From assembly GCF_019047785.1 (NCBI RefSeq), contig NZ_CP077290.1, positions 3,782,001 through 3,846,000 on the forward strand: 64,000 nt of DNA. The letters run 5' to 3'. Every line of letters begins with the position of its first letter. Positions within the stretch are counted from its first letter, which is position 1. The DNA is from Enterobacter cancerogenus (GTDB lineage: Bacteria; Pseudomonadota; Gammaproteobacteria; Enterobacterales; Enterobacteriaceae). The notes beneath the pieces are model-generated. The model was given only the letters and a program-made list of their open reading frames with translations, did not search any database and had not been told where the DNA came from. The position numbers and the translations under genes are program-made. Below, in pieces: positions 36,698 to 45,786 of this stretch.

Positions 36698-36856
36698 ATG
36701 GGTTTTTGGCGCATCGTCTTTACAATCATTCTTCCGCCACTGGGTGTTTTACTGGGTAAAGGCTTCGGATGGGCATTTATCCTGAATATCGTCCTGACGC
36801 TGCTGGGCTATATTCCAGGCCTGATCCACGCGTTCTGGGTGCAGACCAAAAGCTAA
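36698..36856 (+). CDS. yqaE: Pmp3-family membrane protein YqaE
   Basis: 52 residues, starting MGFWRIVFTIILPPLGVLLG, with two membrane segments and the Pmp3 motif PPLGVLLGKG. Relatives affect membrane potential under stress. The ribosome-binding site is GGAG, 6 bp upstream. Its stop overlaps that of convergent yahB by 3 nt. Confidence 0.92.
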   Translation: MGFWRIVFTIILPPLGVLLGKGFGWAFILNIVLTLLGYIPGLIHAFWVQTKS

Positions 36857-37782
36857 GTGCGCCAGAGTAAATCGCGATAAATTCCGGTCAGTACCCCCTC
36901 AGGGCCAAACTGTTGTTTAACCCAGCGGGTCACCTGACCGGTAGCCGCATGCTGTGTGGCAAGCAGCATGCGCGAATCCTGACGCGGGTTATTAATGCGC
37001 CGCGTCACCAGCAGCCCCTCTTCCACGGCCTCCCGCGCCATATACTCCGGTAAAAATCCAATCCCTTCCCCCAGGATCTGACACTGGCATTTGGTGTTGA
37101 AGTCCGGCACCAGAATCGCCTCCTGACCGTGCAGCAGCCAGCCCACCTTTTTGTTGATGGTGTGGGCCGTGTCTTCGACCATGATATTGGGGTACAGGCG
37201 CAGTTGGCTTTCGGCAATCGGCTCCGGGGTAAATGCCAGCGGGTGTTCGGGCGAGATCGCAAAGACCCAGCGAATCGCGCCGATCTCGGTGTAATCAATG
37301 CCGCCGCCGTCGAGCAGGGTGTCCGGCGCGCCGATGGCGATATTAGCCTGATTATTGATGATGGAATCCCACACCCCGTTGTAGACCTCGGTTGTCACCG
37401 TGATCTGGCAGGTCGGAAACTGTTTTTTCAGCACCTGCAGCAGCCGGGCGGTGTGGCGGGGCGTATACAAAAGCTGATTAATGCAGATCCTGACCCGCGT
37501 TTCGATGCCCTGCGAGATGGTGTCGATCCCGCGCTTGATGGCGTGAAAGTCGTTCAGCAGGTCGGTCGCCTTGCGATAAAAGTAAAACCCTGACTCGGTC
37601 AGCTCAATGTTGCGGGTGTTACGCACGAACAGCACCACGTCCAGCCCGGTCTCCATGCGCTTGATGGTGTAGCTGATGGCTGAGGTTGTCACGCCCAGCT
37701 CTTCCGCCGCCTTGCTGAAGCTGCTGTAACGCGCCGCCATGGTGAAGGCCAGCAGGTTTTCTTCGGTAAAGATGGAATTCAT
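36853..37782 (-). CDS. yahB: LysR-family regulator YahB
   Basis: 309 residues. The N-terminal helix-turn-helix (SFSKAAEELGVTTSAISYTIKRME) is followed by an AllS-like effector domain (YNGVWDSII, NIMVEDTAH, ILVPDFNTK). Matches E. coli YahB closely and shares effector-domain motifs with AllS, the allantoin-pathway regulator. Divergent from yahD, so it likely controls the yahDFG-permease-IJ genes. The start MNSIFTEEN was chosen; the extension to 37971 is not conserved. Confidence 0.92.
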   Translation of the reverse strand: MNSIFTEENLLAFTMAARYSSFSKAAEELGVTTSAISYTIKRMETGLDVVLFVRNTRNIELTESGFYFYRKATDLLNDFHAIKRGIDTISQGIETRVRICINQLLYTPRHTARLLQVLKKQFPTCQITVTTEVYNGVWDSIINNQANIAIGAPDTLLDGGGIDYTEIGAIRWVFAISPEHPLAFTPEPIAESQLRLYPNIMVEDTAHTINKKVGWLLHGQEAILVPDFNTKCQCQILGEGIGFLPEYMAREAVEEGLLVTRRINNPRQDSRMLLATQHAATGQVTRWVKQQFGPEGVLTGIYRDLLWRT

Positions 37783-38103
37783 ATCACTGCTCCCGTCCAC
37801 CATCAGTTTTGAACATATTTTAACAACGCAGTTACACCGCATTTGAAGCGGATCACAATTTTGATGCGTAGCTACGTGCCGCGTGGCGCAAGGCTTTTTT
37901 AGCCATAAGCATAATGTCGCGCCGGGCGTAAAAACGCGGCGAAACATAAGAAAAAGAGTGCACACCCGCACATTTTGGCTGAACTGTTGAATTTAACTCA
38001 ATAATGAATTGCCTGTCGATGAATGATTTTTAAGCGGATTCTTTTCCTGAAAGGCTGTTGCTATTCTCGGGACATCAGCAATGAAAAACCAGGGAGTGTG
38101 AAT
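37783..38103. other. 321-bp divergent regulatory region yahB/yahD
   Basis: No gene visible; the E. coli yahC membrane protein gene that sits here is absent. The region should carry the YahB-controlled promoters. A LysR-type T-N11-A site cannot be singled out with confidence. Confidence 0.5.
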
Positions 38104-38709
38104 ATGTCTGCAACTGAACTCGTGACTGAATTTCTGCTGGCGGCCGAGCAGGGAAACGTGGATGCGCTTAAAGCCTGCCTCGATAAAGGCGTGGATATCA
38201 ACGCCACGAATCGCCAGAAAAGAACCGCCATTATTATTGCCAGCCTGAAAAAGCATTATCCGTGTGTGGAATATTTAATTGCCGCCGGCGCGGATATTGA
38301 TAAACAGGATCAGACCTGCTTTAACCCTTTCCTGATTAGCTGCCTGACCAACGATCTTACTTTGCTGCGCATTGTGCTTCCTGCGAATCCCGATCTCGAT
38401 CGCCTTACGCGCTTTGGCGGCGTGGGGATCACCCCCGCCAGTGAAAAAGGCCACGTCGACATTGTTCGCGAGCTGCTGGAAAAAACCGATATCAACGTCA
38501 ACCACACCAACTTTGTCGGCTGGACGCCGCTGCTGGAAGCCATTGTCCTCAATGACGGCGGCGCGAAGCAGCAGGAGATCGTCAGGCTGCTGTTGGAAAA
38601 CGGCGCGAACCCGCACATGACCGATAAATACGGAAAATCTCCCCTCGAACTGGCCCGGGAAAAAGGCTTCGATGAAATCGCCGACCTGCTGCTTGCCGCA
38701 GGCGCGTAA
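38104..38709 (+). CDS. yahD: Ankyrin-repeat protein YahD
   Basis: 201 residues composed of about five to six ankyrin repeats (for example NVDALKACLDKGVDINATNR and VEYLIAAGADIDKQDQ). It is cytoplasmic, with no signal peptide. Likely a protein-binding scaffold; the partner is unknown. Matches E. coli YahD in length. It heads the operon, 106 bp before yahF. Confidence 0.93.
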   Translation: MSATELVTEFLLAAEQGNVDALKACLDKGVDINATNRQKRTAIIIASLKKHYPCVEYLIAAGADIDKQDQTCFNPFLISCLTNDLTLLRIVLPANPDLDRLTRFGGVGITPASEKGHVDIVRELLEKTDINVNHTNFVGWTPLLEAIVLNDGGAKQQEIVRLLLENGANPHMTDKYGKSPLELAREKGFDEIADLLLAAGA

Positions 38710-38815
38710 TTAATCCGGCCAGCCCTTTCCGGCTGGCAGCGACATAAAAAAGCATTCTACCGTCGTGCGTTTTGCACGATGGCGGCCCCCTTTTATCCGC
38801 ATTCAGGAGAAACCC

Positions 38816-40357
38816 ATGCCCACCAAAATCGTTATCAAAAAGAATACCTGGTTTGATTCCGTCTCGCTCATGTCGGTATCGACCAAAGCCAATAAATTAC
38901 CGGGCGTTGAGCAGGCCGTCGTGGCCATGGCGACGGAAATGAATAAGGGCGTATTACATAACCTCGGGCTGCTTACGCCGGAATTAGCCGAGGCCAAAAA
39001 CGGCGACCTGATGATCGTGATTAAAGGCGAGGCGGCGAATGATGAAACGCTGGCCGCCATTGAAGCCTTATTCACCCGCAAGGAAAGTGCAGGCTCCCAT
39101 GAAGCCCGCTACGCCACTATTGCCAGCGCCAAAGCCCACCGCCCTGACGCAAACCTGGCGGTGATCTCCGTCAACGGCACCTTTGCCGCCCGCGAGGCGC
39201 GACAGGCCCTGGAGAACGATCTCAACGTGATGCTGTTCTCCGATAATGTCTCCCTTGACGACGAACTGGCGCTCAAGCAACTGGCGCACCAGAAAGGACT
39301 GCTGATGATGGGGCCGGACTGCGGCACCGCCATCATTAACGGCGCGGGACTGTGCTTCGCCAACGCCGTGCGTCGCGGATCGATCGGCATCGTCGGGGCG
39401 TCCGGCACCGGCAGCCAGGAGCTGAGCGTGCGCATTCACGAATTCGGTGGCGGCGTGTCGCAGCTGATTGGCACCGGCGGGCGCGATCTGAGCGAAAAAA
39501 TTGGCGGCCTGATGATGCTCGACGCGATCGCCATGCTGGAAGCCGACGAGAACACTCAGGCGATCGTCCTCATCTCCAAGCCGCCAGCTCCTGCGGTGGC
39601 GGAGAAAGTTCTGGCCCGCGCCCGCGCCTGCCGCAAACCGGTTATTGCATGTTTCCTGGGGCGCAACGCACCGCCCGCAGACGAGGACGGCCTGCAGTTT
39701 GCCCGAGGCACCAAAGAGGCAGCCCTTAAAGCGGTGCTGTTGACAGGCATCAAACAGGAATCCCTCGATCTACACCCGCTCAACTGGCCGCTGATTGAAG
39801 AGGTACGCGCCCGCCTGACTCCGCAACAAAAGTATATTCGCGGCCTGTTCTGCGGCGGCACGCTGTGCGATGAAGCGATGTTTGCCGCGCTGGAGAAATA
39901 CGATGACGTCTACAGCAACATCCAGCCCGATCCGGCAAAGCGACTGAGCGACATCAACGTCAGCCAGGCCCACACCTTCCTGGATTTTGGCGATGACGAC
40001 TTCACCCACGGCAGGCCGCACCCGATGATCGATCCGAGCAACCGCATCACCCGCCTGCTGCAGGAGGCGCGCGATCCGGAAGTGGCGGTGATCGTGATGG
40101 ACTTCGTGCTCGGTTTTGGCGCACATGACGATCCGGTCGGGGTGATGATCGACGCCATACAGGAGGCGCAGGCGATAGCGAAAGCCGATAATCGTCCGCT
40201 GGTCATTCTGGGCTACGTACTCGGCACCGACCAGGATCCCCAGTCGCTGGCGCAGCAGTGCGAGCGGCTGACCGACGCTGGCGTGATTTGGGCCAGCAGC
40301 AGCACCAACACCGGCTTACTGGCCCGCGAATTTGTCTGCAAAGGGGAGAATGCATAA
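38816..40357 (+). CDS. yahF: FdrA/AllF-family protein YahF (succinyl-CoA-synthetase-like)
   Basis: 513 residues, related to the alpha subunit of succinyl-CoA synthetase: a nucleotide/CoA-type loop VGASGTGSQELS, then GTGGRDLSEKIGG and LISKPPAP. The paralogue FdrA is part of oxamate carbamoyltransferase in E. coli (recent assignment). The same role with another substrate is inferred here. The start MPTKIVIKK follows AGGAGAAACCC. Its stop overlaps the yahG start by 1 nt (TAATG). Confidence 0.9.
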   Translation: MPTKIVIKKNTWFDSVSLMSVSTKANKLPGVEQAVVAMATEMNKGVLHNLGLLTPELAEAKNGDLMIVIKGEAANDETLAAIEALFTRKESAGSHEARYATIASAKAHRPDANLAVISVNGTFAAREARQALENDLNVMLFSDNVSLDDELALKQLAHQKGLLMMGPDCGTAIINGAGLCFANAVRRGSIGIVGASGTGSQELSVRIHEFGGGVSQLIGTGGRDLSEKIGGLMMLDAIAMLEADENTQAIVLISKPPAPAVAEKVLARARACRKPVIACFLGRNAPPADEDGLQFARGTKEAALKAVLLTGIKQESLDLHPLNWPLIEEVRARLTPQQKYIRGLFCGGTLCDEAMFAALEKYDDVYSNIQPDPAKRLSDINVSQAHTFLDFGDDDFTHGRPHPMIDPSNRITRLLQEARDPEVAVIVMDFVLGFGAHDDPVGVMIDAIQEAQAIAKADNRPLVILGYVLGTDQDPQSLAQQCERLTDAGVIWASSSTNTGLLAREFVCKGENA

Positions 40358-41772
40358 TGACCACCTTATTTAACCAGCCGCTGAACGTGATCAACGTTGG
40401 CATTGCGATGTTCAGTGACGATCTTAAACAGCAGCACATTCCTGTCACCCACCTCGACTGGACGCCGCCGGGGCAGGGCAATATGCAGGTGGTGGAGGCG
40501 CTCGACCAGCTGGCGGACGCACCGCTGGCGGAAAAAATCGCCGCCGCTAACGCCATTGCGCTGGAGCGCATTATTCAGTCCCATCCGGTGCTGGTGGGTT
40601 ACGACCAGGCGATCAACGTGGTGCCGGGCATGACCCGTACCACCATTCTTCATGCCGGTCCGCCGGTTGCCTGGGAAAACATGTGCGGTGCGATGAAGGG
40701 GGCGGTCACCGGGGCGCTGGTATTCGAGGGGCTGGCGAAAGATATCGAAGACGCGGAGCGCGTCGCGGCCTCGGGCGACATCACCTTCTCGCCGTGCCAC
40801 GAGCACGACTGCGTGGGTTCGATGGCGGGCGTCACCTCCGCGTCGATGTTTATGCACATCGTGGAGAATAAAACCTACGGCAACCGCGCGTTTACCAACC
40901 TCAGCGAGCAGATGGCGAAGATCCTGCGCATGGGTGCCAACGATCAGAGCGTGATCGACCGTCTGAACTGGATGCGTGACGTGCTCGGCCCGATGCTGCG
41001 CGACGCAATGAACATTCTCGGCGAAATCGATCTGCGTCTGATGCTGGCGCAGGCGCTGCATATGGGTGACGAGTGCCACAACCGCAACAACGCGGGCACC
41101 ACGCTGTTGATCCAGGCGCTGACGCCGGGGCTGATTCAGGCGGGGTATCCGGTAGAGCAGCAGCGCGAAGTGTTCGAATTTGTCGCCAGCAGCGACTACT
41201 TCTCCGGCCCGACGTGGATGGCGATGTGCAAGGCCGCGCTCGACGCCGCGCACGGTATCGAGTACAGCACCGTGGTCACCACCATGGCGCGCAACGGCTA
41301 CGAGTTTGGCCTGCGCGTCTCCGGCCTGCCGGGGCAGTGGTTCACCGGCCCGGCGCAGCAGGTAATTGGCCCGATGTTCGCAGGCTACAGGCCGGAAGAC
41401 TCCGGGCTGGACATCGGCGACAGCGCCATCACCGAAACCTACGGCATTGGCGGCTTCGCGATGGCAACCGCCCCGGCGATTGTGGCGCTGGTGGGCGGCA
41501 CCGTAGAGGAGGCCGTCGACGTCTCCCGCCAGATGCGCGAAATCACCCTCGGGGAAAACCCCAACGTCACCATTCCGCTGCTGTCGTTCATGGGCATTCC
41601 GACCGCCATCGACATCACCAGGGTAGCGGGCAGCGGCATTTTGCCGGTGATCAACACCGCCATTGCCCACAAGGACGCCGGTATCGGCATGATTGGCGCG
41701 GGCATTGTTCACCCGCCGTTTAGCTGTTTTGAAAAGGCGCTGTTGACCTTCCGCGATCGCTACTTTTTATAA
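40357..41772 (+). CDS. yahG: DUF1116 protein YahG (YlbE/AllG family)
   Basis: 471 residues. Conserved blocks FSPCHEHDCVGSMAGVTSASMF and MGDECHNRNNAGTTLL contain possible metal-binding His/Cys. The paralogue YlbE (AllG) is a subunit of oxamate carbamoyltransferase; the frequent pairing of FdrA and DUF1116 proteins suggests a complex with YahF. Coupled to yahF by TAATG. Cytoplasmic. Confidence 0.9.
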   Translation: MTTLFNQPLNVINVGIAMFSDDLKQQHIPVTHLDWTPPGQGNMQVVEALDQLADAPLAEKIAAANAIALERIIQSHPVLVGYDQAINVVPGMTRTTILHAGPPVAWENMCGAMKGAVTGALVFEGLAKDIEDAERVAASGDITFSPCHEHDCVGSMAGVTSASMFMHIVENKTYGNRAFTNLSEQMAKILRMGANDQSVIDRLNWMRDVLGPMLRDAMNILGEIDLRLMLAQALHMGDECHNRNNAGTTLLIQALTPGLIQAGYPVEQQREVFEFVASSDYFSGPTWMAMCKAALDAAHGIEYSTVVTTMARNGYEFGLRVSGLPGQWFTGPAQQVIGPMFAGYRPEDSGLDIGDSAITETYGIGGFAMATAPAIVALVGGTVEEAVDVSRQMREITLGENPNVTIPLLSFMGIPTAIDITRVAGSGILPVINTAIAHKDAGIGMIGAGIVHPPFSCFEKALLTFRDRYFL

Positions 41773-41783
41773 GGCATGCATCC

Positions 41784-43328
41784 ATGAAAAACATGAAACT
41801 GGAGTGGAAAAGAGGTGACTGGGCGGCGTATTTCGGGTTGATGACCAACAACCTGACCAATTTGCTGACCATGATGGGGCTGCTCATTTTTGTCGTCGGC
41901 ATCCCGAAGGAGATTGTTTATGGACGTATCGCGCCAGCCTTCGGGCTGGCGGTTCTGGTGGCGAGCGTCTGCTACACCTGGTTTGGCCTGCAGATGGCGC
42001 GCCAGACCGGGCGTAACGACGTGACCGCGCTGCCGTCGGGCCCCAGCGCGCCGTCGATTTTCACCGTGACCTTTCTGGTGCTGATGCCGGTCTATCAGCA
42101 AACCGGCGATGCGGATTTCGCCATTCAGATTGGCCTGGTGTGGTGCTTCGTTGAGGCGCTGATCCTCGCGGGCGGCTCCTTCCTCGGGGAGACCATCCGC
42201 AGGATGATCCCGCGCACCGTGCTGCTGTCGTGCCTCTCTGGCCTTGGTTTGCTGCTGCTGGCGATGAACCCGATGCTGCAGGCCTTCGAAGCGCCGACCG
42301 TGTCGTTCATCGTACTGCTGCTGATTTTCATCAACTGGTTCGGCAAGAAGCCGATCTTTGCCCGCATTCCGACCGGCCTGCTGCTGTTGATCGCCGGTAC
42401 TCTGCTGGCGTGGATCTCCGGCCTGCAAAGCCCGGAAGCGATCAGGGCCTCAATGTCGTCGTTCGGCTTTAACCCGCCATCCGTACACATCGACGGCTTT
42501 ATGCAGGGTCTGCCGCACGCGCTGCCGTATCTGGCCTCCGCCGTGCCGCTGGGGCTGGCGAACTACATCTTTGACCTGGAGAACATCGAGAGCGCCCACG
42601 CGGCGGGAGACGAATACCCGACGCGTAAAGTGATGCTGGCGAACGGCCTGGCGTCGATGCTCGGCTGTCTGATGGGCAACCCGTTCCCGGTGACGGTCTA
42701 CGTGGGCCACGCGGGCTGGAAGGCAATGGGGGCCAGCATCGGCTACACCCTGGCCTCCGGCGTGACCATGTTCATCGTGCCGCTGTTCGGGCTGGGGGCC
42801 TTTATGCTCGCCATCATTCCGATGACCGCCATCGTGCCGATCCTGGTGTTTATCGGCGTGGTCACCGCCAACCAGGTGGTGCGCGAAACGCCGAAGGTGG
42901 AGGTGCCCGTTATCTTCATCTGCCTGTTCCCGTGGATCGCCAACTGGGCGCTGACCATGGTGAATAGCGTGATGGGCGCGGCGGGCACCAGCGCGGCGAA
43001 AATAGGGACTGACGTGCTGCACAGCAAAGGGATTTACTACGAAGGGCTGGTGCATCTCGGCAGCGGCGCGCCGCTCGCCAGCATGCTCTGGGGCTGTATC
43101 GCCATCTTCGCCATCATCAACAAACCGCTGCGCGGCGCGGTAGCTGCCGCAGGTGGCGCGCTGCTGGCGCTGTTCGGGGTGATCCACGCGCCGGTGGTCG
43201 GCTTCGCCGAGGGCAGCTCGCTGCTGTTCGTCACGGCCTACCTGATGATGGGCGGCATGTTCGTGGTGAAGCATGTGCTGGACAGTCGCGAGACGGCAAG
43301 CGCGGCGGCACCGGTTTCTGAGTCCTGA
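41784..43328 (+). CDS. NCS2-family (xanthine/uracil-type) permease
   Basis: 514 residues with about 12-14 membrane segments. It resembles the AzgA/xanthine-uracil group (ALPSGPSAPSIFTVTFLVL, MGNPFPVTVYVGHAGWK). Probably imports the pathway substrate, a nucleobase-like or ureide ring compound. Not in the E. coli yah cluster as I recall it. Only 11 bp after yahG, so it is co-transcribed; it supports a purine/pyrimidine-derived substrate. Confidence 0.85.
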   Translation: MKNMKLEWKRGDWAAYFGLMTNNLTNLLTMMGLLIFVVGIPKEIVYGRIAPAFGLAVLVASVCYTWFGLQMARQTGRNDVTALPSGPSAPSIFTVTFLVLMPVYQQTGDADFAIQIGLVWCFVEALILAGGSFLGETIRRMIPRTVLLSCLSGLGLLLLAMNPMLQAFEAPTVSFIVLLLIFINWFGKKPIFARIPTGLLLLIAGTLLAWISGLQSPEAIRASMSSFGFNPPSVHIDGFMQGLPHALPYLASAVPLGLANYIFDLENIESAHAAGDEYPTRKVMLANGLASMLGCLMGNPFPVTVYVGHAGWKAMGASIGYTLASGVTMFIVPLFGLGAFMLAIIPMTAIVPILVFIGVVTANQVVRETPKVEVPVIFICLFPWIANWALTMVNSVMGAAGTSAAKIGTDVLHSKGIYYEGLVHLGSGAPLASMLWGCIAIFAIINKPLRGAVAAAGGALLALFGVIHAPVVGFAEGSSLLFVTAYLMMGGMFVVKHVLDSRETASAAAPVSES

Positions 43329-43340
43329 TAATGCCTGATG

Positions 43341-43418
43341 CCCTCACCCTAACCCTCTCCCACGGGGAGAGGGAACGTTAATCCCCCTCTCCCTGTGGGA
43401 GAGGGCCGGGGTGAGGGC
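43341..43418. repeat. Two tandem CCCTCTCCC-family palindromes (copies 4 and 5)
   Basis: CCCTCTCCC at 43353-43361 with GGGAGAGGG at 43365-43373, then CCCTCTCCC at 43385-43393 with GGGAGAGGG at 43397-43405. The pair is bracketed by CCCTCACCCT and GGGGTGAGGG, so the whole 78 bp can fold as one larger inverted structure. It splits the operon between the permease and yahI. Confidence 0.8.
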
Positions 43419-43448
43419 ACCAGAACGCACCTTTTTAAAGGAAAACAA

Positions 43449-44405
43449 ATGAAAGAGCTCATGGTCGTCGCCATCGGCGGCAACAGCATTATCAAAGATA
43501 ACGCCAGTCAGTCGGTGGAACATCAGGCCCAGGCGGTAAAAGCGGTAGCTGAGTCGGTGCTGGAGATGCTGGCATCCGACTATGACATTGTGCTCACCCA
43601 CGGCAACGGCCCGCAGGTGGGGCTGGATCTGCGCCGCGCCGAAATTGCCCACGAGCGTGAAGGGCTGCCGCTCACCCCGCTGGCCAACTGCGTGGCGGAT
43701 ACGCAGGGCGGCATCGGCTACCTGATCCAGCAGGCGCTGAACAACCGCCTGGCGGCGCGCGGCGAGCAAAAAGCGGTCACCGTTGTTACGCAGGTGGAGG
43801 TGGATGAAAACGATCCGGGCTTTACCCATCCCACCAAACCCATTGGCGCGTTCTTCAGCGAGGCGCAGCGCGATGCGCTCCAGCTTGAGCATCCGGCATG
43901 GCAGTTCGTTGAAGATTCTGGCCGGGGCTATCGTCGCGTGGTGGCCTCGCCGCAGCCGCTGCGCATTGTAGAAGCCGATGCCATTAAAACGCTGACGCAA
44001 AAAGGCTTCGTGGTGATAGGCGCGGGCGGCGGCGGTATTCCGGTGGTCCGTACACAAGCGGGCGAGTATCAGAGCGTGGACGCGGTGATCGATAAAGATC
44101 TCTCCACCGCGCTGCTGGCGCGCGAGATCCACGCCGACGTGCTGGTCATCACCACCGGCGTAGAGAAAGTGTGCATCAACTTCGGCAAGCCGAACCAGCA
44201 GGCTCTGGACCGGGTGAGCGTGGCGCAGATGACGCGCTACAGGGAGGAGGGACACTTCCCGGCGGGCAGTATGCTGCCGAAAATCGTTGCCTCTCTGGAA
44301 TTCCTGCATCATGGCGGCAAACGCGTGGTGATTACCTCACCGGACTGCCTGGCCGCGGCGCTGCGCGGCGAAACCGGTACCCATATTGTTAATGAAGGAA
44401 GATAA
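43449..44405 (+). CDS. yahI: Carbamate kinase YahI
   Basis: 318 residues, amino-acid-kinase fold. AIGGNSII and LTHGNGPQVG near the N-terminus and ADTQGGIGYLIQQAL, GAGGGGIPVV and DKDLSTALLA are family motifs. Converts carbamoyl phosphate and ADP to ATP, CO2 and ammonia in the cytoplasm. It provides the energy-yielding last step for the preceding carbamoyltransferase-like pair. The start follows AAAGGAAAACAA. Confidence 0.94.
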   Translation: MKELMVVAIGGNSIIKDNASQSVEHQAQAVKAVAESVLEMLASDYDIVLTHGNGPQVGLDLRRAEIAHEREGLPLTPLANCVADTQGGIGYLIQQALNNRLAARGEQKAVTVVTQVEVDENDPGFTHPTKPIGAFFSEAQRDALQLEHPAWQFVEDSGRGYRRVVASPQPLRIVEADAIKTLTQKGFVVIGAGGGGIPVVRTQAGEYQSVDAVIDKDLSTALLAREIHADVLVITTGVEKVCINFGKPNQQALDRVSVAQMTRYREEGHFPAGSMLPKIVASLEFLHHGGKRVVITSPDCLAAALRGETGTHIVNEGR

Positions 44406-44406
44406 G

Positions 44407-45786
44407 ATGAAAGAGAATAAAAGCCGCCGCGAGTTTATTAGCCAGAGCGGCAAAATGGTCACCGCCTGCGCGCTGTTTGGCGCGACCGGTTCCGTCGCGT
44501 ATGCTGCCGATAGCGCAAAGCCAACCTGCGAGACCGGCAAACCAATGAGCATCACCGCAAAACACTACTACCTGGATAACGTGCTGCTGGAGGCCGGGTT
44601 TACTTTCGACGGCGGGGTGGCGACAAGCACCCGCACCGAGCAGAAAACGCTGGAGATCCGGGACGGCAAAATCGTCGCCCTGCGCGACAACCAAAGCCAC
44701 GCCGACGCCACGCTGCCGCACTATGACGCGGGCGGTAAACTGATGCTCCCGGCGATGCGCGATATGCATATCCACCTCGATAAAACCTTTTACGGCGGCC
44801 CGTGGCGCTCGCTTAACCGCCCGGCGGGCACCACCATTCAGGATATGATCCGCCTTGAGCAAAAGCTGCTGCCGGAGCTGCAGCCCTACACTCAGGCGCG
44901 TGCAGAAAAGCTGATCGACCTGATTCAGTCGAAAGGTTCCACCATCGCCCGTAGCCACTGCAACATCGAGCCGGTATCCGGCCTGAAAAATCTCGAAAAC
45001 CTGCAGGCGGTGCTGGCGCGTCGCAGCGCAGGATTTGACTGCGAAATCGTGGCCTTCCCGCAGCACGGCCTGCTGTTATCGAACTCTGAAAAGCTGATGC
45101 GCGAAGCGATGCAGGCCGGGGCGCACTACGTGGGCGGGCTGGATCCGACTAACGTGGACGGCGCAATGGAGAAGTCGCTTGATACCATGTTCCAGATTGC
45201 GCTGGACTACGACAAAGGGGTGGACACCCACCTGCATGAAACCAGCCCGGCGGGCGTGGCGGCGGTGAATTACATGGTGGAGACGGTAGAAAAAACGCCT
45301 GAACTGAAGGGTAAACTGACCATCAGCCACGCCTTCGCGCTGGCGACGCTGAACGAACAGCAGGTGGACGAGATCGCCACCCGCATGGCGGCGCAGCAGG
45401 TGACCATTGCCTCCACGGTGCCAATTGGCACACTGCACATGCCGCTGAAGCAGCTGCGCGATAAGGGCGTGTTTGTCATGACCGGCACCGACAGCGTGAT
45501 CGACCACTGGTCGCCGTACGGTCTGGGGGACATGCTGGAAAAAGCCAACCTTTACGCCCAGCTCTATATCCGCCCGAACGAGCAGTCGCTCTCCCGGGCG
45601 TTGGGTATCGCCACCGGTGACGTGCTGCCGCTGAACGAGAAAGGCGAGCGCGTCTGGCCGAAAGCGCAGGATGCCGCCAGCTTTGTGCTGGTGGATGCCT
45701 CCTGCTCCGCCGAGGCCGTGGCGCGCATTTCACCGCGTACCGCGACGTTCCATAACGGCAACCTCGTCTGGGGGACGGTGGGCTGA
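44407..45786 (+). CDS. yahJ: Amidohydrolase YahJ with Tat-like signal
   Basis: 459 residues. N-terminal twin-arginine-type motif SRREFIS and a hydrophobic stretch (MVTACALFGATGSVAYA) predict Tat export. The amidohydrolase metal sites follow: MHIHLDKTF, RSHCNIE, THLHETSP, ISHAFAL and the Asp in GTDSVIDHW. It resembles cytosine deaminase/N-isopropylammelide-type enzymes, which hydrolyse ring C-N bonds. Substrate unknown. Starts 1 nt after yahI. Confidence 0.9.
   Translation: MKENKSRREFISQSGKMVTACALFGATGSVAYAADSAKPTCETGKPMSITAKHYYLDNVLLEAGFTFDGGVATSTRTEQKTLEIRDGKIVALRDNQSHADATLPHYDAGGKLMLPAMRDMHIHLDKTFYGGPWRSLNRPAGTTIQDMIRLEQKLLPELQPYTQARAEKLIDLIQSKGSTIARSHCNIEPVSGLKNLENLQAVLARRSAGFDCEIVAFPQHGLLLSNSEKLMREAMQAGAHYVGGLDPTNVDGAMEKSLDTMFQIALDYDKGVDTHLHETSPAGVAAVNYMVETVEKTPELKGKLTISHAFALATLNEQQVDEIATRMAAQQVTIASTVPIGTLHMPLKQLRDKGVFVMTGTDSVIDHWSPYGLGDMLEKANLYAQLYIRPNEQSLSRALGIATGDVLPLNEKGERVWPKAQDAASFVLVDASCSAEAVARISPRTATFHNGNLVWGTVG

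Follow-up and report, generated by a model that had tools for sequence, protein, structure and literature searches.

We analyzed a 64,000-nucleotide stretch of the Enterobacter cancerogenus genome (hereafter the window; contig NZ_CP077290.1, positions 3,782,001 to 3,846,000), in which a yah gene cluster occupies positions 36853-45786. As read from its open reading frames (ORFs), the cluster consists of yahB on the minus strand and, on the plus strand, yahD, yahF, yahG, a transporter gene, yahI, and yahJ. We propose, with a probability of about 0.45, that it encodes a ureide-to-ATP route starting outside the inner membrane. YahJ, of deaminase type and bearing a twin-arginine translocation (Tat) signal, would act in the periplasm on a nitrogen-rich ring compound to give a product with a urea group, and a transporter with a UraA-like predicted fold would import that product. 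A two-protein YahF-YahG enzyme would then cleave the ureide with phosphate, yielding a waste amide and carbamoyl phosphate, from which YahI would generate ATP along with CO2 and ammonia. Gene content and order, family membership, the Tat motif, the lack of AllH-family matches, and purifying selection are direct observations, while the reactions and the direction of transport are inferred. If the product of YahJ were still a closed ring, it would have to open by itself or through an unlisted step. The most useful finding is that AllH, the third component of the related E. coli enzyme, is missing.

The first-pass annotation had described a divergent seven-gene cluster carrying out carbamoyl transfer; all seven genes were present in the order described, and the carbamoyltransferase assignment was borne out by profile scores at the family level. 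YahF (38816..40357, plus strand) is of the AllF/FdrA type, scoring 501.6 bits against the NCBIfam FdrA profile (cut-off 433) and matching the FdrA structure PDB 3dmy at 1.4e-87. YahG (40357..41772, plus strand) is of the AllG type (PF06545, 299.6 bits, cut-off 27) and is the single AllG copy in the genome. YahI (43449..44405, plus strand) is of the carbamate kinase type, reaching the cut-off of subfamily PRK12352 (604.3 bits, cut-off 266) and falling narrowly under that of the arcC equivalog TIGR00746 (347.9 vs. 358.25 bits). Database names present YahF as an acyl-CoA synthetase, which fits both its NCBIfam name and its Pfam domains Ligase_CoA and CoA_binding. In succinyl-CoA synthetase, the loop RMGHAGAI is the phosphohistidine loop. 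Alignments with that enzyme showed the loop to be absent from the aligned stretch of both YahF and FdrA, and we rejected the acyl-CoA synthetase identity, now hardly tenable, because this stretch is missing; AllF is moreover described in a published study as a subunit of oxamic transcarbamylase (PMC11326118). In the open PubMed Central literature, surveyed mostly at listing level, we found no stated function for YahFG and no assigned function for the E. coli K-12 yahB to yahJ operon.

According to the same study, E. coli AllF, AllG, and AllH together constitute oxamic transcarbamylase (OXTCase; PMC11326118), with AllH required alongside the other two for full activity. OXTCase activity, inducible by parabanic acid, has also been reported in Firmicutes (works cited in PMC11326118). 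The AllH family (PF11392) had 0 matches in the window genome, a single 4.82 Mb contig, while the control search was positive in E. coli. The earlier description of a two-subunit system thus stands for this genome, with no AllH-family match beside the AllF and AllG types. Because the AllH subunit has no match, we do not class YahFG as a three-subunit OXTCase, only as possibly working like one. In many relatives, the AllH-family gene yahE sits between yahD and yahF, which in the window is a gap at 38710..38815. Relatives were 80 named loci retrieved with YahG as the query, chosen as the best of 422. Adding the window and a pair of E. coli records gave a set of 83, of which 80 had both yahB and yahI. 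Among these 80, the transporter gene occurred with neither yahE nor yahC at 26 loci, namely, the window, 24 named loci (Enterobacter, Leclercia, Lelliottia, Silvania, Huaxiibacter, and another enterobacterium), and Aeromonas cavernicola. Another 38 had yahE and the transporter (Citrobacter, Serratia, Providencia, Proteus, Buttiauxella, and others), and 16 had yahE and yahC with no transporter (Escherichia, Kluyvera, Raoultella, Pseudocitrobacter, Klebsiella spallanzanii, and one Enterobacter sp. 10-1 record).

The absence extended to whole genomes. Within the genus, AllG was found in 58 of 60 genomes and AllH in four of 60. A yahG-type copy, assigned by score with gene contexts only partly inspected, was present in 56 of the 60; 53 of these lacked AllH, and the three with AllH each carried it a few kb from a second AllG copy. 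The yahD-yahF gap was readable at 24 named loci of the window's clade; 19 of the 21 genomes searched had no AllH, and the AllH in the genomes of loci L005 and L024 matches, by coordinates, the second-copy AllH of genomes G511 and G543. Across 119 genera of the family, AllG was found in 25 and AllH in 23, the AllG-positive, AllH-negative genomes being G000 and G109 (the latter with its cluster split over contigs). AllFG clusters with no adjoining AllH also occurred at L115 and L116, in genomes (G544 and G508) devoid of AllH, and at L113, where the only AllH of the genome (G002) was on another contig. Aeromonas cavernicola, whose yah operon has no yahE, was rejected as an independent AllH-free case because its genome has an orphan AllH-family gene at a different site (L138:8069-8941). 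No AllF or AllG match was seen in the stretch fetched around this gene.

Median ratios of nonsynonymous to synonymous substitution rates (dN/dS), calculated from pairs with dS of 0.05 to 1.0 only, were 0.03 to 0.06 in the window's clade for yahB, yahF, yahG, the transporter gene, yahI, and yahJ; yahD was left out, and these six scored genes are under strong purifying selection in relatives. Loci without and with yahE had medians of 0.053 and 0.072 for yahF and of 0.044 and 0.046 for yahG. The least constrained gene scored was yahE itself (0.198 vs. 0.02 to 0.07 for the others). A search for compensating changes after the loss of YahE found almost none, as only three positions in YahF and four in YahG (one at the C-terminal end) differed consistently between the two groups. 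In Zophobihabitans entericus, yahE and yahF form a natural fusion of 817 amino acids (aa) (L139:15094-17547), joined at residue 301/302 with no linker, and this single frame suggests that the two proteins work together. Among E. coli single deletions, those of allF and allG gave no oxamate, whereas that of allH gave 1.2 mM compared with 17.7 mM in the wild type (PMC11326118). We read YahF-YahG as the putative catalytic core and YahE/AllH as an accessory part that can probably be lost.

YahJ (44407..45786, plus strand) is an amidohydrolase of subfamily PRK06846 (684.1 bits, cut-off 447). Its nearest solved relatives were AtzC-type enzymes (6nbo, 1.4e-44; 4cqb, 7.4e-30) and cytosine deaminases, and it scored below the cut-off of the cytosine deaminase profile PRK07572 (101 vs. 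438 bits). The amidohydrolase motifs HxH, HxxE, H, and D serve in metal binding and catalysis. They were present in 80 to 81 of 81 yahJ loci; in an alignment with YahJ and 6nbo, 4cqb has D in place of the motif E. The Tat motif RRxF was found in all 81 yahJ genes, the 83-row set having one locus without yahJ (L049) and one that ends before it (L057). E. coli yahJ also appears on predicted Tat-substrate lists (PMC7549933, PMC3027627). The first-pass annotation had the substrate imported and then opened by YahJ. Given the Tat motif in all yahJ genes found, that order is probably reversed, with YahJ predicted to act outside the inner membrane, before import. Ring opening by YahJ also appears less likely than deamination, given its CodA/AtzC-type motifs and the gene content of genome G084. 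In the 17 kb fetched from that genome, yahB, yahD, yahE, yahF, yahG, yahI, and a transporter gene are kept and no yahJ was seen. A CDA-fold ORF resembling PDB guanine deaminase at 2.2e-32 begins 12 bp past the transporter gene and is followed by a CodB-like permease (L111, 9388-11412 for the two together).

Other YahJ homologues had different neighbors. The stretch from genome G031 (L202) carries only yahB, yahD, and yahJ, with no yahFG, transporter gene, or yahI, and neither AllG nor the transporter had a match in the genome; ahpC- and ahpF-like genes follow there. YahD was considered as a partner of YahJ on the basis of this arrangement and rejected because yahD is kept in G084 and L049, where no yahJ is seen. 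In G035, a homologue with 58% identity and a Tat-like start is separated by a single LysR gene from the urate hydroxylase gene hpxO (hpxO profile, 644.6 bits, cut-off 500). Homologues in G727 and G917 each have an adjoining LysR gene, and a more distant one in G640 is beside a chlorohydrolase-family (TRZ/ATZ-like) gene and an Asp/Glu/hydantoin racemase-family gene. Taken together, motifs and contexts favor YahJ as a predicted deaminase of a nitrogen heterocycle.

The protein encoded at 41784..43328 (plus strand) had been annotated as an NCS2 permease. No NCS2 sequence profile matched; NCBIfam gave no match at 0.001, and Pfam gave only DUF7220 at a chance-level E of 0.88. The assignment survives at most at the level of fold. 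An AlphaFold model built from 21 sequences (mean predicted local distance difference test, pLDDT, 69.4; predicted template modeling score, pTM, 0.71) had 88 fold matches at E 0.001 or better, and the 50 listed included SLC23A1, SLC26 proteins, and UraA, with template modeling (TM) scores of 0.42 to 0.60 by query length. This moderate-confidence model points to a UraA/SLC23-like fold, a type common to several families. The transporter was found in 14 of the 119 genera sampled, each time beside an AllG or carbamate kinase gene, and G211, a genome of another family, has a relative with 42% identity next to its AllFG and carbamate kinase genes. Transporter gene and yahC were mutually exclusive in all 83 loci. 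On a YahF+YahG tree (79 of the 83 rows), yahE changed twice and the transporter gene and yahC once each; the exclusion was therefore counted as one event, a single swap, and not as repeated evidence. YahC belongs to DUF1097, a family suggested as a transporter in another setting, YcdZ (PMC3454398), which fits yahC replacing the transporter gene.

YahB (36853..37782, minus strand; 309 aa from the conserved start; PF03466 and PF00126) had been linked to the regulator AllS. AllS (259.3 bits, cut-off 372) and PunR (236.7 bits, cut-off 345) were indeed its nearest named relatives in NCBIfam; neither cut-off was reached, that for AllS being an equivalog cut-off. Our best guess for the substrate is a compound derived from a purine and carrying an amino or imino group. 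The closeness of YahB to AllS and PunR, and the YahJ homologue near hpxO in G035, give this lean weak evidence. A more specific version, which we regard as a long shot, would make YahJ a periplasmic deaminase for the imino or amino product of oxidized guanine or urate (e.g., imino parabanic acid); its product would open to oxalurate, be imported by the new transporter, and be split by an AllH-free two-protein transcarbamylase. On this version, enterobacteria would gain nitrogen and ATP from purines that the host or the environment has oxidized.

Several observations weigh against the proposed ureide-to-ATP route. The yahJ and yahFG genes are separable, as G031 (yahB, yahD, and yahJ only) and L049 (all but yahJ) demonstrate. 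No ring-opening enzyme was found within the cluster, and a search of the window genome, run without a positive control, gave no allantoinase-like match. Adjacency to hpxO was seen at one locus, with no hpxO found in stretches L111, L202, L204, L205, or L206. The published E. coli data are mixed: an allFGH deletion carrying plasmid-borne allFG reached 7% of wild-type oxamate (2.9 ± 3.3 mM) and one carrying allGH reached 16%, and the MG1655 allFGH deletion made no oxamate from allantoin (PMC11326118). E. coli K-12 MG1655 carries yahEFG with no pseudogene flag, which could blur the published deletion and plasmid figures; the lack of oxamate in the deletion would mean that YahEFG is either not expressed on allantoin or does not use oxalurate. 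The 7% figure would suit a YahF-YahG pair that is inactive or otherwise employed without AllH, in an operon on its way out of the window's clade. We consider this very unlikely: yahF and yahG are under purifying selection no weaker than in yahE-bearing relatives, few positions differ consistently between the groups, and a yahG-type copy is retained in 56 of the 60 genus genomes.

It is doubtful that YahJ and YahFGI belong to two separate pathways with only their regulator, YahB, in common, the deaminase supplying nitrogen from the periplasm and the other proteins forming a branch for ureide fermentation. G031, L049, and the homologues adjoining LysR genes in G035, G727, and G917 would all suit such a division, while yahJ occurs together with yahF, yahG, and yahI in 80 of the 83 loci (window included), the remaining three being one locus without yahJ and two cut by contig ends, and in the window starts one base past the yahI stop. 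ArcD exchanges ornithine and arginine, and by analogy the transporter (or YahC in E. coli-type clusters) might export the waste amide or exchange it for the ureide and not act in import only, which we judge unlikely. In E. coli cultures supplied with allantoin, oxamate builds up as a metabolic dead end (PMC11326118). In G084, the second, CodB-like permease beside the deaminase gene could do the uptake. Set against this, the predicted fold (pLDDT 69) matches SLC23, UraA, and SLC26 proteins, which include uptake symporters; SLC26 members also exchange anions, so the fold leaves import versus exchange undecided. The originally proposed order, with a ring compound imported, opened by cytoplasmic YahJ, and passed to YahFG, has the merit of explaining how a ring yields a ureide, and related amidohydrolases such as imidazolonepropionase can open rings. 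The Tat motif in every yahJ gene found and the published listing of E. coli yahJ as a predicted Tat substrate nevertheless make that order improbable.

The ureide-to-ATP route concerns a gene cluster whose conservation is far beyond chance. Six yah genes plus either the transporter gene or yahC were present in 76 of the 80 named relatives (counting L016, where yahB is only a contig-end scrap); of the other four, L049 is without yahJ, and contig ends truncate L018, L037, and L057. The rows closest to the window on the YahF+YahG tree were Enterobacter asburiae and E. mori, and a YahG search of viral contigs gave no match. Starts kept in relatives (37782 for yahB, 38104 for yahD, 38816 for yahF, 40357 for yahG, 43449 for yahI, and 44407 for yahJ) fall inside longer mechanical ORFs. 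The yahF stop and yahG start overlap as TAATG. The gene yahD (38104..38709, plus strand) encodes an ankyrin-repeat protein. Between yahB and yahD, the intergenic region (37783..38103) has blocks kept across the window's clade and is presumed to hold a putative YahB-controlled promoter; those containing ATAAG, upstream of yahD, are candidate YahB sites. A GC-rich inverted repeat at 43340-43418, resembling repetitive extragenic palindromic elements in look, separates the transporter gene from yahI. The equivalent gap in E. coli is occupied by yahH, which is repeat-like in L002.

A second kind of AllFG cluster was seen in L113 and L132-L135, with L115-L117 similar by eye. It combines a BiuH-like isochorismatase, AllF, AllG, carbamate kinase, a stand-alone protein of the allophanate-hydrolase C-terminal domain, a permease, and a LysR gene; the permease is CodB-like, or of the window type in L113, and AllH is present in some of these clusters and absent in others. 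Such a cluster would appear to handle a biuret- or urea-like compound.

The window cluster resembles E. coli allFGHK in its AllF- and AllG-family proteins, adjacent carbamate kinase, and AllS-related LysR regulator (PMC11326118, PMC9843812). It differs in having neither an AllH-family nor an allantoinase-like match in its genome (the latter search without a control) and in adding a Tat-motif amidohydrolase, an ankyrin protein, and a transporter that fits no named family. Orthologues of yahB, yahD, yahF, yahG, yahI, and yahJ are shared with the E. coli K-12 yahBCDEFGHIJ operon, which has yahE and yahC and no transporter, whereas the window has the transporter and neither of the other two. YahJ aligns over the barrel with AtzC (N-isopropylammelide amidohydrolase) and CodA, with the same HxH, H, H, and D motifs; it differs in bearing a Tat signal and in scoring far under the cytosine deaminase cut-off. 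The arginine and agmatine deiminase pathways follow a like logic of deaminase, catabolic carbamoyltransferase, and carbamate kinase, but the window cluster has a transferase of the AllFG kind and a deaminase with predicted export.

The AllFGH transcarbamylase represents an enzyme class of recent date, and why it needs three genes is unexplained. A clade without the third gene, with the other two under full selection, amounts to a natural experiment on which part does the catalysis. The cluster also ties a transporter family to AllFG-type clusters, gives a hint that DUF1097 proteins may transport something, and holds a deaminase-type enzyme placed outside the membrane by its predicted signal. 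Work on these points would bear on the E. coli K-12 yahB to yahJ operon as well.

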